Shown here piece after piece: positions 12,063-60,207 of a stretch of DNA of 64,000 nucleotides. The DNA comes from Methanosarcina sp. (GTDB lineage: Archaea > Halobacteriota > Methanosarcinia > Methanosarcinales > Methanosarcinaceae): the NCBI RefSeq assembly GCF_028693135.1, contig NZ_JAQUVZ010000001.1, positions 62,001-126,000 of the forward strand, in the 5' to 3' direction. The notes under the pieces are model-generated. The model made no database searches. It was not told the origin of the DNA and saw only the letters and a program-made list of their open reading frames with translations. The number at the start of each line of letters is the position of its first letter. The first letter of the stretch is position 1. Position numbers and translations under genes: made by a program.

Positions 12063-12105
12063 AGATAAAGTAATGACAGCATTACACCCTCAGTAAAAAG
12101 GAAAA

Positions 12106-12216
12106 CGGAATTAAAAAACGGAATTAAAAAACGGAATTAAAAAACGGAATTAAAAAACGGAATTAAAAAACGGAATTAAAAAACGGAATTAAAAAACGGA
12201 ATTAAAAAACGGAATT
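12106..12216. repeat. Perfect 13-bp tandem array, 8 units plus a partial
   Basis: CGGAATTAAAAAA repeats without error from 12106 (starts 12106, 12119, 12132, 12145, 12158, 12171, 12184, 12197, 12210). Perfect identity points to recent slippage expansion. It lies in the 3' region of the transporter gene. No spacers, no inverted ends. Confidence 0.95.
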
Positions 12217-18983: not shown

Positions 18984-19028
18984 CCTCTGAGCTAAAGACT
19001 CAGTGGTTTCCTGTTGAGGTTTTATGAA
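18984..19028 (+). repeat. Solo IS200/IS605-like hairpin end
   Basis: CTGAG-CTAAAGA-CTCAG with the trailing TTTCCTGTTGAGG...TTTATGAA matches the right end of the elements at 24557 and 52759. Nothing else of the element is here, so it is a relic or minimal copy between the two msr genes. Confidence 0.65.
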
Positions 19029-19360
19029 TCCACCAACTGATTTTAAATATATACTTATTCGCTTTTCCGGCGGGGGAAAAGAAGATGGATCAAAGTTTTG
19101 CCGTATAAGACTTGGATATGGGGACACCAGAAACAAAAATAATGAAAAATAATTATATATATTATAGTAGTAGTTGTTACACATAAAAATGGCAATTTTC
19201 AGAATGTCCTCATAATTCTTAACCTTAAGGTACTTTTCCCATAAAAAATGATAATGGCAAGGTAGAAAGGTTAGAGAAGTGTATAAACTTCTGGTATAGA
19301 CATATATAGAGATATATACAATGTTAGATATGATAGGATAAAAATAAGAGAGGGAATTAG

Positions 19361-24330: not shown

Positions 24331-24386
24331 TTGTCAACTACCCCCTGAGCTAAAGACTCAGAGGTTTTCTGCTGAGGGTTTATGAA
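24331..24386 (+). repeat. Solo 56-bp IS200/IS605-like hairpin element
   Basis: TTGTCAACTACC (left-end consensus) runs into CTGAG-CTAAAGA-CTCAG and then TTTTCTGCTGAGGGTTTATGAA (right-end consensus). Left- and right-end features are fused with no interior: either a minimal mobile unit or an internal deletion of the element 170 bp downstream. Confidence 0.7.
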
Positions 24387-24556
24387 GTTGAATAAGACAA
24401 ACTTATATTAAGTACGAAAATATTTACTATAATTGAGTATTTAAAATCAGGATTGAATCCGTTTGGAGCAATCGAAAAATAGCCAATTATATTAAAAAAT
24501 AGTTATACTGACCCGGAACTCATTGAAAAACTCGTTGAGGCGTCCCGGCAAACTAC

Positions 24557-25047
24557 TTGTCAACTACCCCTGAGCTAAAGACTCAGGGGCTTGTCTAACA
24601 AGCCCTGGTTGACCAGATCACCGATTAGAAGCTTTGGAAAATCGGTAAACGATAGGAAAGAAATAGTTACCCTTGAATGTCGCCTCAGTTTAAGGCTCTA
24701 AGGATGCAGGTTAAACAGTCCTGAGAGGTAGGGGCAGTGCTTGCATCGTTAAACCTTTCCATATCAGATCGAGAGGAGGACGGATTCCGGAATTGACTGG
24801 TTCCAGCTACGCTGTAACACTCCAACTTCACGAAGTTGGAGTCCTTTCAGCTTTGCTGCAACACTCCAACTTCACGAAGTTGGAGTCCACAATTCAGATA
24901 CGCATTACCCTACGTATGTAGGTGGAGGGTGATTTATTCGCCCTCATTACATTAATAAAAAACGAATTCAACAGAGCAGGACGGAGAAGTTTACGCATTC
25001 CTCCCCTGAGCTAAAGACTCAGGGGTTTCCTGCTGAGAATTTATGAA
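24557..25047 (+). mobile_element. ORF-less structured element A (IS200/IS605-like ends, candidate ncRNA)
   Basis: No coding frame in about 490 bp. The left end is GTCAAC...GTTGAC (24559-24564 with 24608-24613) enclosing the hairpins CCCCTGAG/CTCAGGGG with loop CTAAAGA and CTTGT-CTA-ACAAG. Then come CCGATT/AATCGG, a conserved core (GTCGCCTCAG ... GCTCTAAGGATGC ... TGCTTGCATC ... ATATCAGATCGAGAGGAGG), two copies 44 bp apart of a CTCCAACTT/AAGTTGGAG hairpin (24820 and 24864), two variable hairpins, and the right end with a second CTAAAGA hairpin and TTTATGAA. Element B at 52759 shares all of this. The ends fit single-stranded-DNA hairpins of IS200/IS605 elements; the interior looks like a folded RNA, possibly omega-RNA-related. 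tnpA and tnpB are absent. Confidence 0.7.
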
Positions 25048-52635: not shown

Positions 52636-52758
52636 GATACTCATTTCATCTGAAACTGCTGCCCTGACCTGCCAGCTACCCGAGGCTCTCTGGAGAGTAT
52701 AAATACAGCTAATGCATTTGAATGAAAACCTGTAAAGAAAAAAATAAAAAGGCGGTCC

Positions 52759-53251
52759 TTGTCAACTACCCGCCACTAAAGTGGCAGGCATGTTATAGTG
52801 CCTAGGTTGACCAGATCACCGATTGGAGTAAACAAAATCGGTAACCGATATGCAAGAATACAACAATAGTTACCTTCGAATGTCGCCTCAGTTTGAAGCT
52901 CTAAGGATGCCGGTTAAAAGCCCTAAAGGGTTGTGGGCGGTGCTTGCATCAAACAAACCTTGCAATATCAGATCGAGAGGAGGTCGGATTCCTTGATTGA
53001 CTGGTTCCAGCTTTGCTGCAACACTCCAACTTCACGAAGTTGAAGTCCTTCCATCTACGCTGCAACACTCCAACTTCACGAAGTTGGAGTCCACAATCGG
53101 GATACGCATTACTCTACGAAAGTAGAGGGGAGCTAGTTTTTAGCTCCCGTCCAACTTATAAAATATAATCTAAAGGAGGGATGAAAGCAAGTACGGGGAT
53201 GTTTACGCATTCCTCCCATGTCTAAAGACACGGGTATCCTGCTTATTTTAT
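52759..53251 (+). mobile_element. ORF-less structured element B (partner of element A)
   Basis: Same architecture as element A: outer stem GTCAAC/GTTGAC (52761-52766 with 52806-52811) around GCCAC-TAAA-GTGGC and AGGCA/TGCCT, ACCGATT/AATCGGT, the same core sentences, two CTCCAACTT hairpins 44 bp apart (53024 and 53068; the first has one changed base), then CTCTAC-GAAA-GTAGAG and a long GGGAGCTA/TAGCTCCC stem. The right-end hairpin holds the TGTC-TAAA-GACA core. Several stems differ completely from element A in sequence yet still pair. The right end runs into the tmk start codon. No transposase. Confidence 0.7.
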
Positions 53252-53252
53252 T

Positions 53253-53870
53253 ATGAGAGGCAAACTGATCACACTTGAGGGGATTGATGGTTCAGGTAAA
53301 AGTACGGTTGCAAAAAAACTTCAGGAAAATCATGAAATTCGTGTTTTTGAGCCTATCTTTACCAGAGAGCCTACAAGAGGCACCCTTACTGGAAATGCTG
53401 TCGAAAAAGCAATCCAGTCGGATACCGACCAGCTTGCCGAACTATTCCTTTTTACAGCTGACCATGCTGAGCATCTGGCAAAGCTTGTAAAACCTGCACT
53501 TGAAAACGGGAAAACCGTGATTTCTGACCGTTATTCCGACAGCCGCTATGCATACCAGGGAATAACCCTTAAAAACCGCATAGAGAACCCGCTTGAGTGG
53601 GTGAGAGGCCTGCACAGAGGCTGGACCGTTGTTCCGGACCTTACTATTCTATTTGACATTGAACCTGAAATCGCAGTTAAGCGATGCGGGAAGCGAGGAG
53701 AACAAACCAAATTCGAAAAGATAGAATTTCTACGAGGAGTCAGAGAAATTTTCCTCAGACTCGCCGCAGAAGAGCCGGGACGGTTTATAGTAGTTGATGC
53801 TTCTTGCTCTCCAGAAAATGTGGAAAAAACAGTCGTGCAAAAAATTCTCGAGTTTGTTCAAAGGGATTGA
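53253..53870 (+). CDS. tmk: Thymidylate kinase
   Basis: 205 residues. P-loop G-I-D-G-S-G-K-S-T (10-18), the TMP-binding P-T-R-G region, and D-R-Y-S-D-S-R-Y-A-Y-Q-G (DRY/H motif). It phosphorylates dTMP to dTDP. The ATG lies within the right end of element B (TTTTATTATGAG) with no ribosome-binding site in front, so its leader is element-derived or its mRNA is leaderless. Confidence 0.95.
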   Translation: MRGKLITLEGIDGSGKSTVAKKLQENHEIRVFEPIFTREPTRGTLTGNAVEKAIQSDTDQLAELFLFTADHAEHLAKLVKPALENGKTVISDRYSDSRYAYQGITLKNRIENPLEWVRGLHRGWTVVPDLTILFDIEPEIAVKRCGKRGEQTKFEKIEFLRGVREIFLRLAAEEPGRFIVVDASCSPENVEKTVVQKILEFVQRD

Positions 53871-53899: not shown

Positions 53900-53952
53900 A
53901 TCAACTGTCCCTGAACTAAAGACCCAGGGGTTTTCTGCTAAGGGTTTATGAA
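53900..53952 (+). repeat. Solo IS200/IS605-like hairpin end, degenerate
   Basis: TCAACTGTCCCTG-AACTAAAGACC-CAGGGG followed by TTTTCTGCTAAGGGTTTATGAA matches the end consensus, with mismatches in the stem. It sits just after tmk, about 650 bp from element B. Confidence 0.6.
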
Positions 53953-54079
53953 AACAAGTTTTAAATTGAAATCAAAGAGTAAGGCAGGAAATTAACCTGA
54001 AAATTGATCCAGACGATTAAATTCGAGAAATAAACCTCGAAAATAAATAAAAAAATAAAAAAAGAAAGTGAAAGCCCGG

Positions 54080-59013: not shown

Positions 59014-60207
59014 CCTTCCGGAAAGTTACAGAGTCCAGTTTCCGCACCTTTATATAAGAACTTTCCTGAAACAGTGCCTCTACTCCCATAGAGTCTGCTT
59101 TAACAGGCAGCTTGCGGCAGGTAAACTTCCGTTCTAAAAAGTTCATTTTATATAAAAATTTCGTATCCCTGTTTCTCCTTTTTAAATTCCGTGTACCCAA
59201 TTGCTCAACAAATAATTAATTGTTGTGCCTGATACACAAGTTGAGATTCTGGTTTTCAAGAGAATTGATGTTCACAGATTGTAAGGACGGAAACCCCTTT
59301 GCTTTAGATTGGAGAGGAATTCCATTAACTGCACCAGCATTCGTTTTGCGATCCGTGATCATTAAATCAGACCTCATTTTCCCATTATCTGCCATCTCAG
59401 GCCCTTTTCTGGGAGGAAAAGCACCGGTTAGGTAGTAAAGGCTGTTATCAACCCGCCTATAGTGTTCTGCCCTGTTAGCAATTAAGCAAAGAATTTGAAG
59501 CGAAAACTCTATGCTTTTAGCTTGGAGTAGTTAACATAAAGTAAAAATCCCCAGGAATTAAAGGCTTTCGAACTTTGACATAGAACTTTGACATATAATA
59601 TATATATTTGAACATATTACCATTATTTTTGACCGAAGCATATAAGAGATTAGAAATGTCAGGCGATTGTTATGGATGTTATGCAAATATCATAAAAATG
59701 AATCAAGTTCCAACCCTGTTTAGTTCATTTTTAACGTCATCACATATTGAATTAGTCCACCGAGTGGTATTTATATGGTTTCCACCGTCCCCATAATAAA
59801 AACCATTTTATGGCGTCTTGTTATAGAGATTATGTGTTAGATCCTACATAGTGGGAAATTAGTTATTTTTGTTACACATTAATTTAGTAGATATATATAT
59901 TCCTCATATTTATATAAAAATGCTTTGAGTATAACTTTCCGCAGGTGTTCTCCAGGAAAGAACCATTTTCACACCATCGTTTTTTTGGGAATTACTCCAA
60001 AATATGCAATTATTGTCTCAACTGAATCTTCAGAAATGAAAGTTGGAAGTTTTCAATGGAGACAAGAGGTCGAAAAGTGTGGGACATTTCAAAAATACAC
60101 ATTTGAATTCCCAAAGAAATTATAAGAAAAAACGAATGCGTGGAAATTGAAAAAACATCTATGGGAAGGGGGTTGAATTGTTGCCCAATAGAATTAATTT
60201 TTTGTAA
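59014..60207. other. Long gene-free region
   Basis: About 1.2 kb without a protein-like frame on either strand. TATA-type runs lie at 59590 and 59890. Short frames here have no ribosome-binding site and unnatural composition. It may hold decayed sequence. Confidence 0.4.

Follow-up and report, generated by a model that had tools for sequence, protein, structure and literature searches.

Elements A and B, two stretches without open reading frames (ORFs) in the 64,000-nt piece of Methanosarcina DNA analysed here (the window), are best explained as non-autonomous IscB (OMEGA) elements that a Y1 transposase moves and that IscB probably retains, both proteins presumably acting in trans; we give this reading a probability of about 0.7. 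The 5' half of both elements belongs to a known RNA family, the omega-RNA of IscB, the nuclease from which Cas9 probably descends. What goes beyond the known family is located in the 3' half: a double-hairpin module, an array of zero to four 44-nt units and a remnant of the iscB 3' end.

Element A occupies positions 24559-25046 of the window (488 nt) and element B positions 52761-53256 (496 nt), the terminal ATGA being counted in both cases. Both elements were re-read and aligned, and they are similar along nearly 490 nt. No ORF of at least 75 amino acids was found in A or B, so that both are devoid of the iscB ORF that lies immediately 3' of the RNA in a complete IscB (OMEGA) element. The limits are backed by empty sites in relatives, which were detected by searching the genus with the joined flanks of each element. 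The junction of A is uncertain by 1-2 nt, the relatives reading CTTA[C/T]TGAAAC where A has CTT followed by ATGAAAC. The empty allele of B (GGCGGTCCTT directly joined to ATGAGAGG) is gap-free in G008 and contiguous in 10 more genomes, two of them with ATGC; the insertion of B is recent, its site being empty in 11 relatives. Comparison with empty sites reveals that the target is not duplicated, in keeping with Y1 transposition. Both ends of each element carry hairpins; at the right end, hairpin and terminus together cover 25003-25046 in A, ending in ATGA, and 53215-53256 in B, where the empty sites of relatives read GGTCCTT followed by ATGAGAGG (all features of A and B given here are on the forward strand). 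Subterminal palindromes without terminal inverted repeats or target duplication, as seen in A and B, are the anatomy of non-autonomous elements of the IS200/IS605 type. The sequence-only reading had described A and B as ORF-less elements on IS200/IS605-like ends, a description that stands, with exact bounds that the empty sites support; the mobilisation in trans that it suggested is also probably right.

That reading also placed both copies just upstream of a gene, and the identities of the downstream genes (tmk and NrpR) hold. The start of tmk coincides with the terminal ATGA of B, the last four bases of B being the first four of tmk, and nrpR starts 132 nt after A. The stretch containing B (52740-53256) parts tmk, which is presumably essential, from its native upstream sequence AGGCGGTCCTT. 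Translation of tmk must now begin from sequence supplied by B, in which a TATA-like TTATAAAATATAA and GGAGGGATG are located approximately 70-100 nt upstream.

Other traces of the same ends are present in the window. A 53-nt solo remnant at 24333-24385 (forward strand), 173 nt upstream of A, joins the left end GTCAACTACC to the hairpin and terminus of the right end (GGTTTATGA, ending in GGGTTTATGA); it looks like the product of recombination or slippage between near-identical end hairpins, in the manner of a solo LTR. More right-end-like remnants with no clear left end nearby were found at 18992-19030, at 53916-53960 and, on the minus strand, at about 59260-59307 (for instance, CTAAAGACTCAG and GGTTTCCTG followed by a terminal TTTATGA). 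The window also contains, at 12102-12216, 8.8 perfect copies of a 13-bp unit, AAAACGGAATTAA.

The Rfam family HEARO (RF02033) covers the 5' half of both elements over the full model (1-211), with 128.6 bits at 24559-24781 in A (E 2.6e-26) and 95.5 bits at 52761-52988 in B (E 2.9e-18), against a cut-off of 83; the core of A begins exactly at its left end, GTCAACTACC. HEARO is the RNA found 5' of IscB genes, that is, the single guide (omega) RNA of the Cas9-ancestor nuclease (PMC9755519, PMC9640706). ORF-less copies reach HEARO scores as high as those of iscB-bearing ones. The pseudoknot of this RNA is formed by a CCUC loop and the GAGG after the nexus stem, and its role has been described (PMC9640706); all 42 ORF-less copies keep the loop (CCTC in DNA), and most of them also have a GAGG-like partner. 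Folded as RNA, element A reaches -171 kcal/mol (z = -6.5 relative to dinucleotide-shuffled sequences). The conservation of the parts that face IscB, together with the absence of the coding parts, fits the use of IscB in trans, although it does not prove it.

The proposal of an omega-RNA-like guide or a new RNA, made together with a call for comparison with Rfam, was therefore right as to an omega-RNA but not as to a new class, which is ruled out for the first ~225 nt, nor as to TnpB, since the RNA is HEARO and 13 iscB genes or fragments are present in the genome. TnpB elements of the IS605/IS607 groups also carry a guide RNA on an element of the IS200/IS605 type. However, their omega-RNA lies at the right end and overlaps the 3' end of tnpB, and the guide is taken from the right flank, whereas A and B have a HEARO RNA at the left end, with the predicted guide on that side, and a coding remnant of iscB. 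A TnpB origin is thus ruled out, and the suggested tie to a tnpB element falls: the full relatives that share these ends carry iscB.

The host genome contains 45 HEARO copies, 12 located before iscB (some of them cut by contig ends) and 33 without it, together with 13 matches to the IscB N-terminal family PF14239 (genes or fragments) and three Y1 transposases (Y1_Tnp). One IscB was confirmed by NCBIfam guided_IscB (348 bits), the Pfam domains RRXRR and HNH, and matches to solved IscB structures. The iscB-bearing elements, mostly 1.56-1.73 kb long and with intact copies in this or sister genomes, are ISC/IscB transposons (IS200/IS605-related) whose nearest named relatives are in Methanosarcina sp. 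2.H.T.1A.6 and then Ktedonobacter; A and B share their ends, RTGA site and omega-RNA but are 488 and 496 nt long, with a double hairpin in place of the deleted iscB. Across the genus, HEARO was detected in 11 of 31 genomes and IscB in nine, and genomes rich in iscB are also rich in HEARO, the richest being G008, where IscB has 59 matches and HEARO at least 53 copies.

With respect to the transposase, the Y1_Tnp loci of seven genomes were examined for a cognate enzyme, and the best candidate matches the hairpin of A/B-type elements but not their terminus or target motif. One of the TnpA of the host genome (L033) and 139-aa copies of the IS605 type in G010 share with those elements the right hairpin CCCCTGAGCTAAAGACTCAGGGG and GTTGACGC; both differ from them in terminus and target (TTTAT-like). 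G010 carries about 25 or more near-identical copies of this 139-aa tnpA (L156-L163), with a terminus ending in CATATAAA; the element is expanding in that genome.

The target was defined with 67 distinct insertions from seven genomes, bounded by pattern. Almost all of them begin with GTCAACTACC or a one-base variant (the left end of L068 is mis-set). They share the same right end, which is RTGA in 67 of 67 and is followed by A in 60, and the left flank is random, with no consensus. In IscB omega-RNAs, the 5' segment of ~17 nt is the guide (PMC9640706). By analogy, the 17-nt left flanks at 24542-24558 and 52744-52760 are the predicted guides of A and B, respectively, derived from the target. The 14 TAM-proximal bases of the predicted guide of B recur unchanged in the empty alleles of three relatives (G008, G011 and G001), and about 14 guide bases matter in OgeuIscB (PMC9640706). 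As sequence anatomy, this is the layout of IscB: a 5' guide from the left flank, a 3' TAM, and empty sites in which N17 is followed by ATGA. Clear ORF starts adjoin 10 of the 67 insertions, as against nine of the 190 ATGAA sites of the window (4.7%), an excess that is sufficiently explained by the overlap of the ATGAA motif with start codons and by the removal of intragenic insertions by selection. The same ORF-less insertion is found before a leuD-like gene in this genome (L034) and in G008 (L115), so that it is either older than their split or the result of a transfer. In two iscB elements (L028 and L048) the open frame continues across the hairpin of the right end as far as the TGA within the terminal ATGA; thus, the insertion site supplies the stop codon. 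Stand-alone HEARO or omega-RNA copies, and insertion at ATGA/GTGA, were reportedly noted before, by Weinberg in 2009 and by Altae-Tran in 2021.

Like the HEARO/IscB omega-RNA, A and B have a full-length covariance match that starts at the left end, the pseudoknot loop, and a position 5' of iscB in intact relatives. However, they lack iscB and run ~260 nt past the Rfam model. The first structure there is a hairpin (GGATTCCGGAATTG pairing with CAATTCGGAT) common to ORF-less and iscB-bearing elements, which covers 24782-24902 in A and 52986-53105 in B; its arms differ among relatives and still pair, as judged by comparison of relatives rather than by a formal pair count. The spacing of the arms in intact cases is 21, 65, 109, 153 or 197 nt, that is, 21 + 44n (n = 0-4), because the loop contains zero to four copies of a 44-nt hairpin unit. 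A and B have two each, with hairpins at 24820-24841 (CTCCAACTTCACGAAGTTGGAG) and 24864-24885 in A, and at 53024-53045 and 53068-53089 in B. The duplicated CTCCAACTT hairpin, which had been taken for a constant feature, is therefore present with a 44-nt period but is not constant, since relatives carry 0, 1, 2, 3 or 4. The number of units differs between near-identical omega-RNAs and therefore changes fast. The unit is found in three of 31 congeneric genomes (G000, G008 and G010), at HEARO loci where checked, and no exact match to its hairpin was found in named genomes. Rfam microRNA matches on these repeats are far under the gathering score and were rejected as chance.

In iscB-bearing copies this hairpin is followed by CTC-TTCG-GAG, then or overlapping with it the ribosome-binding site GGAGG, and then iscB. 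ORF-less copies of the A/B group carry two adjacent hairpins in place of the ribosome-binding site and iscB: 24908-24945 in A (hairpins 24908-24924 and 24925-24945) and 53112-53148 in B (53112-53127 and 53128-53148). This double-hairpin module is limited to ORF-less copies, in G000, G008, G010 and G011 and, in diverged form, in G009 and G012. Among 14 distinct sequences from several genomes, gathered by DNA search, 97.4% of the pair cells are standard and seven of the 14 pairs are changed on both sides; none of 500 shuffles scored as high, and slid controls reached 45-60%. The earlier claims of compensatory change are upheld by these data: each of the four stems named is paired in both elements despite differing in sequence; two lie inside HEARO (the left-end hairpin and its neighbour) and two in the 3' module, and for the latter two selection on structure is borne out by the 14 sequences. 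A second ORF-less group, composed of 14 L001-like copies and of L011-like copies, has another 3' part and lies outside this detailed comparison. A literature search, with the founding HEARO, ISC, IscB and homing papers outside it, returned no description of the double hairpin or the 44-nt array, which is a weak sign of novelty.

The 3' structures can be matched by position to the OgeuIscB omega-RNA, which has a guide-adaptor hairpin, a nexus stem, the CCUC/GAGG pseudoknot and two terminal hairpins (as inferred from PMC9640706). The first 3' hairpin would correspond to terminal hairpin 1 and the next one to terminal hairpin 2. In contrast to OgeuIscB, the terminal-hairpin-1-like stem bears zero to four additional 44-nt hairpins; in ORF-less copies the hairpin after it is longer and has another one behind it. 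The PLMP domain of OgeuIscB binds both terminal hairpins, for the most part without specificity for their sequence (PMC9640706).

Directly ahead of the right hairpin of A, some 40 nt (24965-25002) match the iscB 3' end of L028, L048 and L076 (AATTCAACAGAGCAGGA to TTTACGCATTCC), and are a remnant of it. In the tree, ORF-less copies with the double hairpin stand on deep branches and in several genomes, and therefore represent long-lived lineages rather than one-off deletions. Taken together, the remnant and the deep-branch spread indicate that A and B arose by internal deletion and that the ORF-less form then became a lineage of its own. The possibility that they are deletion products with a decayed coding interior, which the sequence-only reading named as what would overturn it, is thus correct for these ~40 nt but not for the remaining interior, which is conserved RNA.

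The strongest alternative, though an unlikely one, is that A and B are plain deletion derivatives of the PATE or MITE type, whose ends are moved by TnpA and whose omega-RNA is a passive cargo, still recognisable because the copies are young. PATEs are palindrome-associated, transposase-free elements of the IS605 type that are moved in trans in archaea and bacteria and that can be internal transposon deletions (PMC3119063, PMC7290912). A and B resemble them in the absence of a transposase, the palindromes near the ends, the lack of target duplication and the likely movement in trans, and the iscB remnant points to the same kind of origin. Two mini-elements, L043 (174 nt) and L091 (244 nt), keep the ends and the double hairpin although little or nothing of the HEARO core is left in them, so that mobility does not strictly require a complete omega-RNA. 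As in ordinary PATEs, TnpA alone could account for the copy number with no need of IscB. However, PATEs in the narrow sense consist essentially of terminal palindromes, whereas A and B, equally too short to code, have as interior a structured and conserved guide RNA with covariation. Compensatory changes maintain its structure across deep branches and several genomes, neither the pseudoknot loop nor the HEARO scores have decayed, and a simple deletion would not conserve a double-hairpin module that is missing from iscB elements.

It is less probable still that the double hairpin and the 44-nt units, instead of being features of an RNA, serve the transposase as DNA structures or result from replication slippage. 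IS200/IS605 transposases read hairpins in single-stranded DNA, the double hairpin persists in the mini-elements that lack most of the omega-RNA, and the number of 44-nt units varies as slippage products do. However, iscB-bearing elements with similar ends have no double hairpin, which is therefore not needed for transposition, and its position fits the terminal-hairpin region of the omega-RNA. That the elements are domesticated 5' leaders, now mainly regulating tmk and nrpR through a new promoter or an IscB-bound RNA, is very improbable: it could draw on the excess at ORF starts, on the separation of tmk from its upstream region and on the TATA-like stretch and the GGAGG that precede tmk by about 70-100 nt, but that excess requires no function, most copies lie away from gene starts, and B is recent, its site being empty in 11 relatives.

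On the reading that we consider probable, A and B are non-autonomous members of a Methanosarcina IscB transposon family, and they have kept both ends and the whole omega-RNA while losing iscB. TnpA (Y1) acting in trans would bind the end hairpins and move the element as single-stranded DNA into the junction between N17 and RTGAA. Transcription over the left junction would then yield an omega-RNA with flanking genomic sequence as its 5' guide. IscB from related full elements could bind this ORF-less omega-RNA and cut sister or incoming chromosomes that still have the empty site, and repair would copy the element back, so that it is retained. Along with iscB, the ORF-less lineage would have lost the ribosome-binding site beside the small 3' terminal hairpin; this hairpin would have been lengthened and a second one added, resulting in the 3' domain of a stand-alone RNA. 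The 44-nt units expand and contract freely, so that the loop holding them probably points away from the protein. More tentatively, and at somewhat less than even odds, these would be long-lived and abundant stand-alone omega-RNA transposons that parasitise IscB: elements that encode a homing guide RNA and nothing else, with a 3' domain adapted to existence in the absence of iscB and a hairpin array able to expand, whose retention is driven in trans by the nuclease of full elements, as in an RNA-only gene drive.

The leading idea about guided nucleases carried by transposons is that they serve for homing into lost sites. In one genome, guide-RNA-only elements exceed nuclease-bearing ones by a ratio of almost 3 to 1, and they would be a natural test of this idea: if it holds, they should last only where IscB is present. 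A/B-type elements illustrate, moreover, the way in which a guide RNA can become separated from the gene of its nuclease, which is a step in the direction of CRISPR-like guides that act in trans; the 44-nt array marks a place where the omega-RNA accommodates as many as four additional hairpins. If nuclease and transposase are borrowed from relatives, as they probably are, these gene-less elements would be natural parasites of an RNA-guided system.
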